Origin: Chryseobacterium joostei
GTDB taxonomy: Bacteria; Bacteroidota; Bacteroidia; Flavobacteriales; Weeksellaceae
Length of the DNA stretch: 64,000 nt
Assembly (NCBI RefSeq): GCF_003815775.1
Contig: NZ_CP033926.1
Location: forward strand, 4,092,001 to 4,156,000
Direction: 5' to 3'
Program-made: the position numbers and the translations under genes
Shown here: positions 56,930 through 64,000 of the stretch, piece by piece
Layout: every line of letters begins with the position of its first letter
Numbering within the stretch: position 1 is the stretch's first letter
The notes under the pieces: generated by a model
Databases searched by the model: none
The model's input: the letters and a program-made list of their open reading frames with translations, nothing else
What the model was told of the DNA's origin: nothing

Positions 56930-58358
56930 AAATATAATAGCTGCCATTGCCTTATCTCTTGTTTTAGCAAGTTGTAAGGCTCCAATGGCTACAGTCATAA
57001 AAGATGAAGTTAAGACCAATATACCTCAAAACTTCAATCAGGAAGAACAACAAGACGCCAATAATAACAGTGGAACAACCCCTTGGAGACAGTTTTTTAC
57101 CGATCCAAACCTGGTAAGCCTTATTGAAACAGCTTTAAAGAACAATCAGGAGCTACTTATCACTCTTCAGGAAATTGAAATTGCCAAGAGTGGAGTTTTA
57201 GCTAAAAAGGGCCGATTAAGCCCAACTGTTTCAGCAGGGATAGGTGCCGGATTGAAAAAAGCAGGACGTTATACCAGTGAAGGAGCCGGGGATGCTACTA
57301 CAGAGATAGAACCAGGAAGAGAAATGCCTGATCCACTAGGTAATTTCGGTGGCGGATTAATGGCCAATTGGGAAGTTGATATCTGGAAGAAACTGAGAAC
57401 AGAAAAGGAATCAGCGGTTGCTCACTATCTTTCTACAGTAGAAGGTAAAAACTTTGTGTTGTCTAATCTTATTGAGGAAGTTGCAGATAATTATTATGAA
57501 TTATTGGCTCTAGATAATCAATTGGATATCATACAGCAATATATTAAGCTTCAGCAAAGAGCCTTGGAGATTTCCAAGATTCAGAAAGAGGCTGCAGCTG
57601 CAACAGAGCTGGCTGTGAAGAAATTTGAAGCAGAACTGGCAAAGTCCAAGGCTTCAGAATATACCATTCGTCAGCAGATTACGGAAAAGGAGAATGAGAT
57701 CAATGCTTTATTGGGAAGATATCCACAACCGATTATCAGAACAAAGGAGAACTTCATGTCTACTATTCCGCCGACTGTATATACCGGGATTCCGTCACAA
57801 TTATTGGCCAATCGTCCTGATATTAAGGAGGCAGAATTGGAACTAAAATCTTCAAAACTGGATGTTGAAGCAGCGAGAAAAGAGTTTTATCCTTCCCTGG
57901 AAATCTCCGCAACACTAGGGTTGGAAGCATTCAAGCCATCTTATTTAGTAAAAATGCCTGAGTCTATAGCCTATAATCTGGTTGGAGAACTGGCAGGACC
58001 GCTTATTAATAAAAGTGCTATTAAAGCCAACTTCCAGACTGCGGATGCAAAACAGATACAAGCATTGTACGAATATGATAAAACTATTCTGAATGCTTAT
58101 TTGGATGTAGCCAATCTAATGTCTAAGATCAAAAATATAGATCAGTATTATCAATTAAAATCTCAGGAGACAAAAGCCCTGGATCAGTCCATTGATATTG
58201 CCAATCAATTATTCAGAAACTCCAGAGCAGATTATCTTGAAGTTCTTTTGAACCAAAGAGATGCACTGGATGCCAAAATGGAGCTTATAGAAGCCAAACA
58301 AAAACAGCTAAGCACTGTGGTGGATATCTACAAGAGTCTGGGTGGCGGCTGGAAATAA
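56901..58358 (+). CDS. RND efflux outer-membrane factor (NodT/OprM type)
   Basis: An outer-membrane lipoprotein of 485 aa. The start MNMMENLKTKNIIAAIALSL ends in the lipobox VLASC. Two OEP repeats follow: LIETALKNNQELLITLQEIEIAKS with GRLSPTVSAGIGAG, and ANRPDIKEAELELKSSKLDVEAARKEFYPSLEISATLG. The channel is typical of TolC-like proteins. Three candidate ATGs (56901, 56907, 56910) are in frame. The overlap with the pump gene suggests coupled translation. Confidence 0.93.
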   Translation: MNMMENLKTKNIIAAIALSLVLASCKAPMATVIKDEVKTNIPQNFNQEEQQDANNNSGTTPWRQFFTDPNLVSLIETALKNNQELLITLQEIEIAKSGVLAKKGRLSPTVSAGIGAGLKKAGRYTSEGAGDATTEIEPGREMPDPLGNFGGGLMANWEVDIWKKLRTEKESAVAHYLSTVEGKNFVLSNLIEEVADNYYELLALDNQLDIIQQYIKLQQRALEISKIQKEAAAATELAVKKFEAELAKSKASEYTIRQQITEKENEINALLGRYPQPIIRTKENFMSTIPPTVYTGIPSQLLANRPDIKEAELELKSSKLDVEAARKEFYPSLEISATLGLEAFKPSYLVKMPESIAYNLVGELAGPLINKSAIKANFQTADAKQIQALYEYDKTILNAYLDVANLMSKIKNIDQYYQLKSQETKALDQSIDIANQLFRNSRADYLEVLLNQRDALDAKMELIEAKQKQLSTVVDIYKSLGGGWK

Positions 58359-58396: not shown

Positions 58397-58431
58397 TGGG
58401 GTCAATTCTTCGGAGTTGGCCCCTTTTGTTA
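58397..58431 (+). terminator. Terminator of the RND operon
   Basis: GGGGTCAATTC, TTCG loop, GAGTTGGCCCC (58398-58423) form an 11-bp stem with wobble pairs, followed by TTTTG. It separates the efflux operon from the unknown cluster to the right. Confidence 0.8.
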
Positions 58432-58653
58432 TTGTATACTTTGCTATGATGGCTGTAAGTTAAAAGAGAAAGAGAATGATTTTAATTCTAAACAAAGGCT
58501 AGGATCCCTCCAATTCAAAAAATACAGTAAATAGACTGGGAAAATTTTATATCAGAACACGTCTTGGTTAATACTTATATACTCATGCTTTAATAATTAT
58601 AATTTTTTTATACCAAAAAATATAACACGACGAGTTTTGACGTTGGTCACAAA

Positions 58654-58661
58654 TACTTTTG
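58654..58661 (+). promoter_or_regulatory. -7 element TACTTTTG of the unknown cluster
   Basis: Matches TAnnTTTG. The nearest TTG lies only 14 bp upstream (58637-58639). The inverted repeat TTGTATT/AATACAA overlaps the -7 element and the expected transcription start. The first gene starts about 370 bp downstream. Confidence 0.45.
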
Positions 58662-58983
58662 TATTGTAATAAAAATACAACAACTATGACCACATTTTTT
58701 CAAACACTCGATTGCTTCATCAAGAAGAAGAAATCACAAATTCTAAAACTTACCAACACATTAATTAACCAATTTTTAAAATCACATTGACGATGATAAG
58801 TGATGCTATTCACATTACAATACCAATGTATTTTATGTAACCAACTACACAAAAAAAATATGAAACAACACAAAAACACCAAATTTTTAACTATACAATG
58901 TACCTGCGTTTCTTGCAGAGATTACATTTAAATTTTGATAATAACACAATGAAGTTATTACAAAAACAATCTTCAATGAATTC

Positions 58984-59019
58984 TAAAATTTGGAATTTAT
59001 TGAATCACACCAAATTTTA
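58984..59019 (+). other. Hairpin just before the metalloprotease gene
   Basis: TAAAATTTGG (58984-58993) pairs with CCAAATTTTA (59010-59019) over a 16-nt loop, 20 nt upstream of the ATG. It is followed by ATTTTTAATATTT and resembles a weak attenuator or translation control element. Confidence 0.4.
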
Positions 59020-59039
59020 ATTTTTAATATTTAAAAAAT

Positions 59040-62000
59040 ATGTCAGTAAATATTAAATCACCCACTTCTTATTTTTTTACTGAGTTATCCTTTAGTCAGG
59101 GAGCAGGAGATAAGAGTTTTGGTGAGCTCAATGCAAATGAATTCCAGATAACAACCAGCTTTCCTGGAGCGCTTAAAGCGTATGCTGTAACAGATGGAGT
59201 TCTATTTTTTGCCAGGCATGGCAGTACAAATGATAAAGTTAATATCCTATTAAAACCTTCCACACCAGTTGACCTCGGTGTTAAAGTTAAATATTTCGTT
59301 TACAGAGGAGTTAATGCAAGTGATTTATTTAAGACAGTGAATGGAAAAGTTCAGCTTAATGATTCTAGCAGCTTAGAATATTTAAATACTTTTTGGCAGG
59401 AGTATATAAGCTTTTATGGATCAAATTCAGAATTTACAGCAGATAAAATCGGGTATTTATCAGATACTTCTTCTGGATCTTCTTCTGAAATTATTAAAAA
59501 ATTTTTCCCAAAAGATTCTCATAATTTAGTACGTGTAAAAGCAGGTACTCATATAGGTAACTTTTTCAGTGGTTCTGGAGGGTTTGAAATTGTAGTAGAT
59601 GAAGGTGACTTTTCCCAGAAAAAATCTGATACCGGATTAGAATTTGATTTGAAGTTTGCTACCGCAACCTCTTGTACATTGAAATTGAATGGTTCTAATT
59701 CTTTACCTGATGTTTTTGGAGGAAATGAAAATTCAAATATTGATGCTAAAATTTTCCGGGAGAATATTTTTAAATTTTTAGATCCTGCAGCTTTTTATGG
59801 TTCACACGTAACAAATAATGCACCTAATGGTAATACAGGAAGTATTTGTATAGGAGGTACCGGTACATCTTATTCTACAATGGATGACATTTATAACAAT
59901 TTTGTTAAAAAGTTTAAAAACAATCTTAAGACCTACTTTTACGTTAAAGGAAATGATAATAGGAGTTTAAATTTTTATAATTCAGACAATATATTGAAAG
60001 TAAATGGTACCGATTATAATTTAAGTACTTTAAATTGGCCTATTATTGTTCTTCCGTTACCTTACTGCAATATAGAATTTGCAAATGTTGTTCCCAATGA
60101 TTCATTTTTCAGTACCACTTTTTTATCAAGCAGCAGCAGTTTTTCTGTGCCTCAAAAAAGCTACTTTTTTTCAAAAATTGTGTCGAATTATGTATGTAAT
60201 TTACCATTTGTTAATTCTTCAGGAAATAAGATTTTTAGTAGTTTCACCTATTTGGTTTACAATAAACCTACCAGCCCGCTTGACTCCTTTTTTGGTCCTG
60301 TAAATTTGGAATCTGTTTTTGAGAGAGAGGATTATACAAGTAATCAAGGATCAATAGTAAACAACCTAAGACCTGTACTGATAAAAGAAGGGAGTAATAT
60401 AGGAATTTATAAGAGTAAACTTGTTTTGGAAGGATACTTAGCAGATACAAACCCAACAAACATACCAACAGATCCTACAGTTTTGTCCAAAACTCTTAGA
60501 ACTTATATCCTTTTGCCTCAGGAATCTACCATTTCATTATCAGATGTAAGCAAAGGAGGACTTAATGCCAGATACTATACTGCTGTAAATGATGCTGAGA
60601 GCTATTGTAAAACAATATATGAGAAAGGTAACATATGGAAAGGTAAGATACGTGATGTTCAGGACGTTAATGCATTATTGTATAGGAGAAAAGATAATGA
60701 TGATGATAATGCTCCTATTTATCAATTAGGAATTTCACAGGCAGATTATAAGAAAATGGTGGATGAAGTTTATACTATAGATGATAAGGCAACAAATTTA
60801 ACTTTCCATTTTGAGAATGAAGTAACTGATGCCAAAAGTTCATTTTATAAGTATGATCTGAAAGTAAAATTTGATAATAAAAATGGAGAACGTAAACAAA
60901 CAATAAAATACGTTACAGTATATACTATTGATGGTTGTTTCTTCTTTAGCAAGGATTATTCTGATAATTTTAAATTCTTCGAAGAGTTTGCCAATATTGC
61001 AGTAGATTTTTTACCCATAAATCTGTCGTCTTATAATTTTGGATATGAATGTGGTTTTGATTTTATCGGCTTTGAGGGTAGAGAAAAATACTACGATGTT
61101 ATAGGGAAATATTATAATAAATCTACAGGACAACTTGATAATATAGATGTTTCCAATGGAATCGATTATCAATTTAGAAATAATAAACTAAACTATTTTA
61201 AGCTCTTAAGTAAAAACTATAATCATAAACCTTCAAATTGGAGACATTCAGGAACTGATTTCGCTTTTCATACAGATTCATTTATAACTCTTTATCCTGG
61301 GAAAGAGACCACTGTAAAGTTGAAATTTACAAAATCTCAGAATCCATCGAAGCTGTATATAAAGTATAATAAGAAATATGTAGCTATAAATAATTCTACT
61401 GCAACCCCCTCATCAGATGATGAATTTGCAGAATTTGAAATCCCAGCTACAAACTATACTACCATCAATACAAATTATACGATAAAAATAAAGTCTTTAC
61501 AGGCTTCAAACGTAGACATTCCTATTGAAGTGTTTGCAGTAGAGGGAAGTAAAAAACTGTTGGCAGGAAAATGTTGGTTATTGAAAAATTCGGAAGCTTA
61601 TATACTTAAAACCATCTTGGTAAATGTTCAAACAAATACAACAGGAACAGTGAAAAGTGGTTTGCCAAGTACAGATTTGGTTCAATCGAAGTCAATACTC
61701 AATAATTTTTTAAATCAAGCTTTTCTGAAAGTAAAAGATGGAGATACTACTAAATATCTTAATTTAGACTTAACAAATGATCCGGGCTTTAAAGTTGCAG
61801 GTACTAATGTGGGATCTTATTTAACGCCTTATACAGATAGTGGTATTACCTATTATGCCGTAAAGGATACGGAGGATGTATTTGCCCATTGTATGACAAA
61901 ATTAAAAGATGAGAATCCGGGTATTAAGATAGATGACTTTTTGGTTTTATTTTTCTTTGACGAGCCTGGAGGAACTGATGGAGGAACTGCCGGAATTGCT

Positions 62001-62318
62001 GATAAAATAAGTGGCTATAGAGGAGCTAGGATTTATAGGCATGGATTGAAAAGAAATACTATTGCTCATGAGGCATTACATTCCATTGCTTTATATCATA
62101 GCTTTGATAATGATGGCGAGTATACTTTCCGAATAACTTGGTTAGTTTTGGGATCAATAATTCCTAGTCCATCACCAGTGCCTACAGATAATGTTATGGA
62201 CTATTTTCAATTCAAGCCTACAGATGAAGATAAATTAAGAAAATTTATTTGGAAATGGCAAATGAATAAAATTTGGAAAATGAATTACAATAATAACAAA
62301 CTAATTAAAGACACATAG
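59040..62318 (+). CDS. Large protein of unknown family with C-terminal metzincin signature
   Basis: The 1092-aa protein has no signal peptide and no membrane segment. The first 950 residues are of unknown family, rich in beta-strand-like sequence and Ser/Asn. The start MSVNIKSPTSYFFTELSFSQ is followed by VKVKYFVYRGVN and a FGYECGFDFIGFEG segment. Near the C terminus NTIAHEALHSIALYHSF gives HExxHxxxxxH (His1010, Glu1011, His1014, His1020). DNVMDYF, with Met1053, supplies a Met-turn 33 residues later, as in metzincin zinc proteases. This supports a peptidase domain; the glycine usual before the third ligand is absent. Substrate, location and export route are unknown. The next gene follows after 4 bp. 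Confidence 0.75.
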   Translation: MSVNIKSPTSYFFTELSFSQGAGDKSFGELNANEFQITTSFPGALKAYAVTDGVLFFARHGSTNDKVNILLKPSTPVDLGVKVKYFVYRGVNASDLFKTVNGKVQLNDSSSLEYLNTFWQEYISFYGSNSEFTADKIGYLSDTSSGSSSEIIKKFFPKDSHNLVRVKAGTHIGNFFSGSGGFEIVVDEGDFSQKKSDTGLEFDLKFATATSCTLKLNGSNSLPDVFGGNENSNIDAKIFRENIFKFLDPAAFYGSHVTNNAPNGNTGSICIGGTGTSYSTMDDIYNNFVKKFKNNLKTYFYVKGNDNRSLNFYNSDNILKVNGTDYNLSTLNWPIIVLPLPYCNIEFANVVPNDSFFSTTFLSSSSSFSVPQKSYFFSKIVSNYVCNLPFVNSSGNKIFSSFTYLVYNKPTSPLDSFFGPVNLESVFEREDYTSNQGSIVNNLRPVLIKEGSNIGIYKSKLVLEGYLADTNPTNIPTDPTVLSKTLRTYILLPQESTISLSDVSKGGLNARYYTAVNDAESYCKTIYEKGNIWKGKIRDVQDVNALLYRRKDNDDDNAPIYQLGISQADYKKMVDEVYTIDDKATNLTFHFENEVTDAKSSFYKYDLKVKFDNKNGERKQTIKYVTVYTIDGCFFFSKDYSDNFKFFEEFANIAVDFLPINLSSYNFGYECGFDFIGFEGREKYYDVIGKYYNKSTGQLDNIDVSNGIDYQFRNNKLNYFKLLSKNYNHKPSNWRHSGTDFAFHTDSFITLYPGKETTVKLKFTKSQNPSKLYIKYNKKYVAINNSTATPSSDDEFAEFEIPATNYTTINTNYTIKIKSLQASNVDIPIEVFAVEGSKKLLAGKCWLLKNSEAYILKTILVNVQTNTTGTVKSGLPSTDLVQSKSILNNFLNQAFLKVKDGDTTKYLNLDLTNDPGFKVAGTNVGSYLTPYTDSGITYYAVKDTEDVFAHCMTKLKDENPGIKIDDFLVLFFFDEPGGTDGGTAGIADKISGYRGARIYRHGLKRNTIAHEALHSIALYHSFDNDGEYTFRITWLVLGSIIPSPSPVPTDNVMDYFQFKPTDEDKLRKFIWKWQMNKIWKMNYNNNKLIKDT

Positions 62319-62322
62319 AAAT

Positions 62323-63237
62323 ATGAGAAATTTTTTATTGATACCTTTTTTGTGTATTTATATCTTTTCATCAGGACAAGAGTATAAATCAATTAGAAAT
62401 ATTACTGGTCAAAACTGTTCTGAAATAGCTTTTGAAGAATATCAGACTATTAAAGAGCAATATTTACAGCATTTGCAAAAAAATCTGGAGTCAGTTATTA
62501 ATAGAAATAACAACTTTTACATTAAAAGCAAACTGGATAGTGTTATGGCTGCTAAAAGTATAAAAGATCTGGCAGATCTTAATCTGGAAGATCAGAAGTA
62601 CAGGTATCAATTTAATTTCAAATATAAAAACTATAATGTCTATGGAAGATCACCATCTTCAACAGCAAGTAATTTATATTCTTTAGATATTTTAAGAAAT
62701 AATAAACATCTGGAAACGGTAGACTTCCTTACTGATGGAGGGTTCACTGTTGAAATCTATGCCAATAGATACAAAATGCAGGAAATTTATTCTGCAAAAC
62801 CTGGAAAGTGTACTTATTCTATAATGGACACCTACATGAGTAATGTACTTGTTGGAAATAGTTTAATAGATAATGGACAGGAGATTGTATTTACAGACTG
62901 GGATAAAAAGTTTAAAATTTCTGACGACATTCTATTAAAAATGTTACCTCGTTTATTCCCGCAAGCTATTCAGATACAAAAACAGAATGTTAAAAATATG
63001 CTTGGCAAGGATATGGGTTCAGGAGCGATTCTCAGTAATGATGATTTAAAAGTCGCCTACCAATATTTAGATCAGATTTCGAAAAATTTCAATAATGATT
63101 TTAAAGATTATAAAAAGTCCATACAGTTTGAAAAGCTTATTAGCAATAATAATACTCCAATCTGGAAAATTACGTATGGAATAGTTATTATTTTGAATGG
63201 GAATACTGGTAAAATACTAAGTGTGTATAATAAGTAA
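62323..63237 (+). CDS. Exported protein of unknown family, cluster partner
   Basis: A clear signal peptide (MRNFLLIPFLCIYIFSSGQ) precedes a mostly helical 285-residue domain with no recognised motif. Segments such as IKEQYLQHLQKNLESVINRNN and KFKISDDILLKMLPRLFPQA suggest helices. The gene starts 4 bp after the metalloprotease stop, so the two are surely cotranscribed. An export signal on this small partner, beside a large protein without one, would fit an effector with a periplasmic protector, but there is no direct evidence. Confidence 0.65.
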   Translation: MRNFLLIPFLCIYIFSSGQEYKSIRNITGQNCSEIAFEEYQTIKEQYLQHLQKNLESVINRNNNFYIKSKLDSVMAAKSIKDLADLNLEDQKYRYQFNFKYKNYNVYGRSPSSTASNLYSLDILRNNKHLETVDFLTDGGFTVEIYANRYKMQEIYSAKPGKCTYSIMDTYMSNVLVGNSLIDNGQEIVFTDWDKKFKISDDILLKMLPRLFPQAIQIQKQNVKNMLGKDMGSGAILSNDDLKVAYQYLDQISKNFNNDFKDYKKSIQFEKLISNNNTPIWKITYGIVIILNGNTGKILSVYNK

Positions 63238-63287
63238 AAATTATATATGGACAAATATTTCACCAATAAAACAATCAAAGTAATATT

Positions 63288-63313
63288 CTATAATTCTTCT
63301 TGAAGAATTATAG
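63288..63313 (+). other. Hairpin between the second and third cluster genes
   Basis: CTATAATTCTT and AAGAATTATAG form a perfect 11-bp stem with a CTTG loop. No T tract follows, so it is probably not a terminator; it could be a processing or regulatory site. Confidence 0.45.
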
Positions 63314-63340
63314 CACTAAATAATAAAATATTAATAAATT

Positions 63341-64000
63341 ATGCCAACCACAATAATACAAAAACCCTATTATCCAAAGCTATCAAATTTAATTAGCTTT
63401 AATAATTTACCGACGGGTTTAGATTTTGTTTCAAGTTTATCTCAGGATATTTTTTCTAATTTATATTATAAAAATTATCAGGCAAGTGTAAGTCCTTCGG
63501 GAGAGAGTGCTTTTTATAGCATGAGTCTTGTTGCAAAAAAGAGAATAGAATTTGATTTAGTCTATGGTTTAAAGTTTATACTAAACAAAGATCACCAAGA
63601 TAATACAATTTCTTCCTTTCCTGTCACACTTCAATACAATTGGCCAATCATTGGCTATCTATCAAGATTTAATCTCAATAATTTTTCATTCTCACCAAAA
63701 GAAATTTTTAAGGTAGCCTTAATTTCACTTAATCTAACAGAGAGTGATGTAATTAATCAAGCCATTAATGTTTTCGTTAATACTACAGGTGATCCTGTTA
63801 ATAAATTTGTTGATGATTTGAATGCTGAATTGAGCGGTTTAATTTCGTCTCCAATTCCTTATCCAAGTTCTGATAATAGAATTGAGGAATTAATTAGCTC
63901 TATTAATACAGCATATGGAGAAGGTGCAGCTTTAGCGGCCTTTGCAACATATATTGTAAGTAATATAAATAGTTTTAATCCCAAAGAAAGACTAAAATCT
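63341..64000 (+). CDS. Protein of unknown family, 3' end cut by window
   Basis: A 220-codon open frame runs from an ATG at 63341 (MPTTIIQKPYYPKLSNLISF) to the window end. There is no signal peptide; the sequence is mixed hydrophobic and polar with FDLVYGLKFILNKDHQD and VTLQYNWPIIGYLSRF. It shows no recognised motif. It begins 104 bp after the exported partner, with the hairpin at 63288 in between, in the same direction as the metalloprotease cluster. Coding is judged from the unbroken frame. Confidence 0.65.
   Translation, partial: MPTTIIQKPYYPKLSNLISFNNLPTGLDFVSSLSQDIFSNLYYKNYQASVSPSGESAFYSMSLVAKKRIEFDLVYGLKFILNKDHQDNTISSFPVTLQYNWPIIGYLSRFNLNNFSFSPKEIFKVALISLNLTESDVINQAINVFVNTTGDPVNKFVDDLNAELSGLISSPIPYPSSDNRIEELISSINTAYGEGAALAAFATYIVSNINSFNPKERLKS

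Follow-up and report, generated by a model that had tools for sequence, protein, structure and literature searches.

A candidate polymorphic toxin-immunity cassette with a predicted metzincin effector and putative delivery proteins of its own in Chryseobacterium joostei

Analysis of a 64,000-nucleotide stretch of the Chryseobacterium joostei genome (hereafter the window; G000:C1:4092001-4156000 of a 4.89 Mb genome) points to a four-gene cassette beginning near its right-hand end, with the order A-B-C-D, in which A and B are very probably an effector and its immunity protein. This pairing is well supported by sequence comparison, because A and B are swapped at one site while C and D stay. The locus as a whole is probably a polymorphic toxin-immunity cassette equipped with putative delivery proteins of its own that appear not to have been described before, and similar cassettes, made up of a carrier, a swappable toxin, an immunity gene, C, D and often tail fibres, appear to be widespread in Bacteroidota. 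In the following, L numbers designate fetched loci, G numbers genomes (G000 being that of C. joostei), and K numbers and F30 protein clusters.

The first three genes lie on the plus strand of the window, as confirmed by the listing of open reading frames (ORFs). Gene A (59040-62318) starts with ATG and codes for a protein of 1092 aa without a signal peptide; gene B (62323-63237, 304 aa) follows 4 bases past A; and the ORF of gene C starts at 63341 and runs past the window end, the first 220 of its 2279 residues being encoded at 63341-64000. Gene D (1538 aa) comes 5 bases after C, and together the two occupy G000:C1:4155341-4166802, mostly beyond the window. Export signals, here and in all homologues, were called from hydropathy and lipobox with a simple rule, not by SignalP, and by this rule an N-terminal signal is present in B and in none of A, C and D. 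A preliminary description of this DNA had reported three adjacent plus-strand genes outside any recognisable family, the first coding for a signal-less 1092-aa protein with a metzincin signature, the second for an exported protein 4 bases later, and the third cut by the window end. All of this holds, and Pfam, NCBIfam and PHROGs indeed gave no family for A, for B or for the 220 residues of C encoded in the window.

Three parts can be distinguished in A. Residues 1-647 (59040-60980) form a carrier module that can be aligned to 16 carriers encoded on their own (707-740 aa), and which stands alone as a protein of ~725 aa in relatives; residues ~654-850 (60999-61589) may represent an Ig-like linker; and residues ~851-1091 (61590-62312) are the predicted protease domain. 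The window therefore contains the type with toxin and carrier joined in one protein, while relatives also have the toxin as a separate gene. The metzincin signature consists of an HExxHxxGxxH zinc motif and a Met-turn. In A, these lie at residues 1010-1020 (62067-62099) and 1049-1055 (62184-62204), respectively, and H1010, E1011, H1014 and H1020, together with T1049, N1051, M1053 and Y1055, do not vary among 15 aligned sequences; the glycine position of the zinc motif is an alanine in the window protein and varies in some homologues. The predicted structure of residues 851-1091 likewise matches metzincins, the nearest folds including fragilysin, ADAM and pappalysin, a match that came from the second aligner only, as Foldseek returned mostly Ig-like and p53-like matches for the model of A. 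From the conserved residues and the modelled fold, we conclude that the C-terminus of A is a predicted metzincin-type protease domain. The best-named protein matches of A are from Chryseobacterium; nothing passed the cut-off in Pfam, NCBIfam, PHROGs or PADLOC, and a profile search of the PDB with the carrier family gave no believable match. Export signals are absent in 22 of 23 separate carriers and in all 12 fused ones.

The exchange of A and B is apparent from a comparison with Chryseobacterium aurantiacum (G215, L063), where a cassette sits at the corresponding position behind the same TolC gene. Identity to the window's copy is 97.6% for TolC (over 452 aa), 92.9% for C and 92.2% for D, whereas A reaches only 37% overall (58-65% over residues 1-312 and 26-34% in the protease part), and B has no significant match. 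The divergence extends into C, whose residues 1-150 (window 63341-63790) are 64% identical versus 88-100% for the rest of the protein. Divergent A and B between conserved neighbours at one site are what one would expect if toxin and immunity gene had been exchanged as a unit whose edge falls within C, and the divergence of the start of C along with A and B hints at either a recombination edge or a contact specific to the toxin.

Variation of the toxin was also examined at 23 loci with a separate carrier (20 selected fetched loci plus L050-L052). In all of them the gene next after the carrier codes for a protein of 590-1230 aa, the putative toxin slot, and in 22 a small gene follows the slot gene directly; at the remaining one, L148, a 380-aa ORF lies between the two, perhaps as part of a split toxin. 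C is in view at 22 loci, the contig of L155 ending first, and extra small genes precede it at L051, L154, L156 and L157. The first 300 aa of the slot genes fall into 3 clusters (18, 4 and 1 members), their last 160 aa into 12 (11 without L148), and their partner genes into 7. One slot C-terminus is an EndoU nuclease (PF14436, 49.9 bits for a cut-off of 25.3), the only family over cut-off among nine slot genes scanned, and that of L051 resembles Toxin-deaminase below the cut-off (PF14424, E 0.0035); the partners of both toxins lack export signals. The slot genes of L141, L145, L151 and L052, which are paired with one partner family, carry in their C-termini a GS...D-hydrophobic-D pattern that we take to be nucleotidyltransferase-like. 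A constant N-terminal part with diverse C-terminal toxins, varying adjacent immunity-type genes and orphan modules are the features by which polymorphic toxins are recognised, and all of them are found in these cassettes.

Concerning the partners, their export matches the type of toxin they accompany. All 17 metzincin loci, cassette and VgrG types taken together and duplicates counted once, have at least one exported partner, versus 4 of 23 loci with other toxins, with a Fisher p of 7e-8 that is optimistic because the loci are related; moreover, the four exported partners of non-metzincin toxins all adjoin one same hydrophobic toxin type. Profile comparison, based on alignments of 1-5 sequences with signal regions included, links several metzincin partner families to one another (K24-K12 96%, F30-K12 96%, K42-K12 93%, B family-K23 94%) across cassette and VgrG-type loci, and gives no link above 6% between these and the partners of other toxins. 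B itself has no family at cut-off in Pfam or NCBIfam and no match in PHROGs, PADLOC or PDB sequences, and a profile search of the PDB with its family gave no believable match. A kinship of the partner proteins to PepSY-like or MORN-like inhibitors is no more than conceivable. The proposal of the preliminary description that A is an effector-type enzyme and B its exported immunity-type partner is thus upheld by the swapping of the pair as a unit, by the exported partners at every metzincin locus, and by the metzincin domains linked to VgrG (see below).

Displaced remnants of metzincin C-termini are present at L040, L042 and L047, each followed by an immunity-type gene or fragment (at L040 after an intervening 96-aa ORF). 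The L047 remnant (71% identity over 72 residues) precedes a gene whose product shares 48% identity with B, and neither a carrier nor C nor D is visible at that locus. L040:11232-13701 and L042:7435-11761 also contain arrays of several immunity-type genes of differing families between A and C, along with toxin remnants.

A different target might be imagined for A, namely eukaryotic hosts or prey, in which case B would be a chaperone or inhibitor and not a protein conferring immunity against kin. Fragilysin, a protease acting on host cells, and animal ADAM proteases are indeed among the closest folds. We nevertheless consider this improbable, as the same slot holds EndoU and deaminase-like toxins with signal-less partners, and as immunity-type genes are multiplied and left as orphans, which is the pattern expected for anti-kin immunity.

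The link of the carrier with C and D was assessed by scanning genome contigs with a D alignment, the best 80 of 148 relatives being kept; these define 77 loci, all in Bacteroidota and mostly in flavobacteria. C is immediately upstream of D wherever it is in view (71 of 71 loci). Among 42 genomes chosen for diversity from those behind these loci (hereafter the wider D genomes), 39 possess the carrier, i.e. the N-terminal part of A. At the 39 D loci compared, which exclude the three genomes without any carrier match, the carrier is found at most 25 kb upstream and on the same strand in 37 cases, 33 of them at 10-18.4 kb. Carrier, C and D are therefore inherited together, and we lean towards regarding them as a dedicated delivery set.

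Neither giant protein resembles a characterised one. Over their full length, C and D gave nothing over cut-off in Pfam and nothing convincing in PHROGs or PADLOC; profile searches of the PDB with their families yielded no believable match; and there is no match to either among 50,697 phage records, nor to D among 72,556 plasmid records. Helical proteins such as Mediator subunit 15 were matched by C over residues ~1450-1730 (E 0.0016 or worse), and these matches were set aside. C is 41-69% identical across 16 aligned homologues, and 3 of 17 aligned C proteins, the window's own not among them, match DUF6603 (PF20248). Its structure model recovered LptD, ushers, porins and ApoB in Foldseek and VIA-align, with barrels at a root-mean-square deviation of ~10-15, and is taken only as suggesting long amphipathic antiparallel strands, membrane insertion not being implied; a period-2 hydropathy test supports amphipathic strands (38 strands, z 6.6 versus shuffles). 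D homologues vary chiefly by N-terminal extensions of ~200-800 aa (11 of 18 aligned), some of which match Big_1, Invasin_D3, vWA (PF13519) or FHA. One D homologue, at L102:9050-14962, has a long N-terminal stretch that we presume to resemble a von Willebrand A domain, PF13519 being listed for another D homologue.

Such extensions, together with the likeness of C to outer-membrane barrels in a low-confidence model, would also suit a cell-surface or adhesion structure, with the toxin genes as tolerated passengers at a recombination hot spot. We hold this to be rather improbable, slightly more so than a eukaryotic target, since 88 of 91 C and 76 of 79 D homologues lack an export signal, and the joint presence of carrier and D in 39 of the 42 genomes exceeds what would be expected of passengers.

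Downstream of D, 53 of the 77 loci contain at least one gene of clusters K3, K4, K9 and K13. Nine of ten tested K3 members match a PHROG annotated as 'tail' (E 1e-15 to 3e-3), as does an eleventh (4e-5); K4 has matches to PHROGs for tail fibres (8.5e-12) and to Gp53-like_C in Pfam (1.9e-8); K9 matches Phage_tail_APC (9.3e-19); and the one K13 member tested had no match. Members of K5, K7 and K10, which are not counted in this total, match no tail family. All four counted clusters are absent from nine loci without C or D. In the phage records only short matches were obtained, over 9% of the query for one K3 fibre and over 36-37% for the K9 chaperone.

A gene for an M15 endolysin-type peptidase lies upstream of 13 of the 23 separate carriers (L050:4562-6184, L140-L159), beside a patatin-type phospholipase gene in L050 and L052. 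These are possible release genes; no M15/endolysin-type gene is present upstream of the window's carrier, and we claim no lysis role for the window.

Could A instead be an effector of a type VI secretion system (T6SS), as the metzincin domain by itself would suggest? In the genome of C. joostei, this domain appears from sequence to be a VgrG-linked type of T6SS toxin. The genome encodes TssC (G000:C1:4508926, PF17541), six VgrG-type genes and TssD. A search with PF05943 (VipB), covering other T6SS subtypes and run in this genome only, was negative. The genome also codes for a 446-aa relative of A, which aligns over residues 666-1075 at 30% identity (E 3e-7); its gene sits immediately behind TssD/Hcp and VgrG, in that order, and ahead of a lipoprotein-type gene. 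Moreover, metzincin domains are fused to VgrG at L054 (by Pfam) and at L055 and L056 (by BLAST to VgrG). At L057:12425-16256 (G000:C1:4312424-4316255), Hcp and VgrG are followed by a pair of related toxin-type genes (446 and 564 aa) that flank a lipoprotein-type gene, an order repeated in G127 (L059); of the pair, the 446-aa gene has the metzincin domain.

A might accordingly belong to the organism's own subtype iii T6SS (T6SSiii), with the carrier adapting it to VgrG or Hcp and C and D as accessories. TssC is indeed present in 14 of the 42 wider D genomes, and in 30 of the 37 genomes with D (one of the 37, G069, is a fragment) in a sample of 296 genomes of the family. Conversely, it is unmatched in 28 of the wider D genomes and in 7 of the 37 (one of these being G069). 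Among the loci read, VgrG and TssD relatives were seen only in L054-L059, and none occurs in the window locus (L002/L003) or in cassette loci L040-L053 and L063-L159, PAAR not having been searched for. We thus judge this explanation unlikely, although it is the strongest of the alternatives.

It is far less probable still that the cassette is cargo of a particle of the extracellular contractile injection system (eCIS) type whose genes lie in another part of the genome. D does have tail-fibre-type genes linked to it, and the PF04984 sheath is matched (E 1e-3 or better) in 22 of the 42 wider D genomes, in 13 over cut-off; but the genome of C. joostei has no such match (3 of 14 control genomes do), and among 19 family genomes with A, carrier or a remnant only 2 match, 1 of them over cut-off. 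No sheath match in these 22 genomes lies close to the carrier; the two are on separate contigs or, in one case, 1.4 Mb apart (G320 has no carrier match). Furthermore, both the TssC model for Bacteroidota and the phage/eCIS sheath model fail to match in 12 of the 42, of which 10 have the carrier; four of the 12 are metagenome-assembled genomes, so absence there is weaker.

There is also no sheath gene near the window cassette. Judged by gene neighbourhood, a contractile injector is not a linked part of the cassette, and its use from elsewhere in the genome is excluded only where none was found; on balance, we are inclined to view the cassette as independent of T6SS and eCIS. The coupling to a contractile injection system envisaged in the preliminary description is not borne out, given that no sheath, VgrG or TssD is linked and that 12 of 42 D genomes have a match to neither sheath model. 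That description had also held that homologues spread widely without secretion genes would speak against its analogy; such is the distribution as far as known contractile systems are concerned, yet genes of phage tail-fibre type lie behind the cluster at 53 of the 77 loci.

Several observations weigh against a toxin-immunity cassette with dedicated delivery proteins. Toxins and partners do not correspond one-to-one, as the largest partner cluster (12 members) serves five toxin C-terminal clusters. At L046, L049 and L053 the partners directly downstream of the metzincin toxin are signal-less, with exported homologues upstream of the toxin. The B family reaches only 2-14% with the larger metzincin-partner group, i.e. 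no clear link, and a C-terminal motif that 21 of 25 metzincin partners have, against 0 of 16 partners of other toxins, was picked by eye after viewing the sequences. No fibre-type gene is in view at 24 of the 77 D loci, and none accompanies the window cassette or that of G215. The model of C is of low confidence (predicted template-modelling score 0.39), and because no protein of known function is recognisably related to C or D, it is their linkage that speaks for a role in delivery. Finally, TssC is more frequent in the family-sample genomes with D than in the others (30/37 versus 150/259, 180/296 in all; p 0.007, confounded by genus).

Under the toxin-immunity interpretation that we prefer, the system might function as follows. 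The C-terminal metzincin of A would act against bacteria by cutting proteins outside the cytosol of a rival, in the periplasm or at the outer surface, and B, the cognate exported immunity protein, would protect the producer and its kin, presumably by binding A directly. Whichever toxin fills the slot would be loaded and delivered by the carrier module of A acting with C and D. In most relatives, target binding would be supplied by the phage tail-fibre-type proteins encoded downstream, and the window copy, which has no fibres, would borrow them or bind through D. One may speculate that a long amphipathic beta-sheet of C, as suggested by the model, inserts into the target membrane. Taken to its end, this leads to the tentative idea, which we would not yet call probable, that carrier, C, D and tail fibres constitute a new non-contractile toxin-delivery machine of Bacteroidota, a complex formed in the cytosol which exits the cell, binds rivals through its phage-derived fibres and, by means of the beta-sheet of C, opens their envelope to any toxin attached to the carrier. 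If carrier, C and D do deliver toxins without a sheath, they would constitute an additional route of antibacterial delivery, in a phylum that is widespread, and the cassettes would provide a ready catalogue of toxin-immunity pairs.

As for the surroundings, the TolC-type gene of the upstream resistance-nodulation-division (RND) operon ends at 58358, and A starts 681 bases later. Between them lies a plus-strand terminator-like hairpin (58398-58423, an 11-pair stem followed by TTTT), a pattern that alone is not significant (1 in the region versus 1.9 expected from shuffles). Position 58432, from which the preliminary description had begun its region, is non-coding, and a Bacteroidota-type promoter pattern is not enriched in the window. 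At the other end, a peptidase-like gene, presumably of the M20 type, is found 503 bases downstream of D. Further on, a 2217-aa exported-looking repeat protein and related genes (L003:9244-15897, G000:C1:4177244-4183897) follow the cassette; the repeat protein looks like an ordinary secreted surface protein.

We found no description of the cassette in the literature searched, whose scope excluded most subscription papers and all bioRxiv preprints, and no mention there of DUF6603, the family of uncharacterised function shared with some C homologues. Several known systems can nonetheless be compared with it. Tc toxin complexes have three large components of sizes similar to the cassette proteins, one of them with a variable C-terminal toxin, and their hallmark domains are RHS/SpvB (TcB) and VRP1-type (TcA); no Pfam match to the Tc-type domains RHS, SpvB or VRP1-type was obtained in D, C or the 16 aligned homologues of C. 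Fragilysin, ADAM and pappalysin, which share the protease fold with A, differ from it in having signal peptides, being either secreted or located in membranes.

PVC/eCIS toxins resemble the cassette in having phage-tail-derived parts and signal-less toxins. The PVC metallopeptidase is reported to have an HExxHxxQ-E signature (PMC3482391), where A has a metzincin-type motif; the cassette further differs from PVC/eCIS by the absence of a linked sheath and the presence of immunity-type genes. The closest published effector type that we found, matched by description rather than by sequence, is VgrG2b of the Pseudomonas aeruginosa T6SS, which is reported to have a C-terminal metallopeptidase with PA0261 as its immunity protein (PMC6899460). 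The protease of VgrG2b is joined to VgrG, a T6SS member, that of A to a carrier module whose linkage is with C and D. The TANFOR toxins (PMC7073777) are comparable in organisation: as in the cassette, they occur in Bacteroidota, a constant N-terminus is combined with swapped C-terminal toxins, the toxin is either fused or encoded in an adjacent gene, and an immunity gene lies beside it. A has no NCBIfam or Pfam match at cut-off, the presence of a TANFOR model in those libraries being unverified. TANFOR loci are reported to be enriched in substrates of the type IX secretion system (T9SS), whereas the cassette is linked to C, D and tail fibres.

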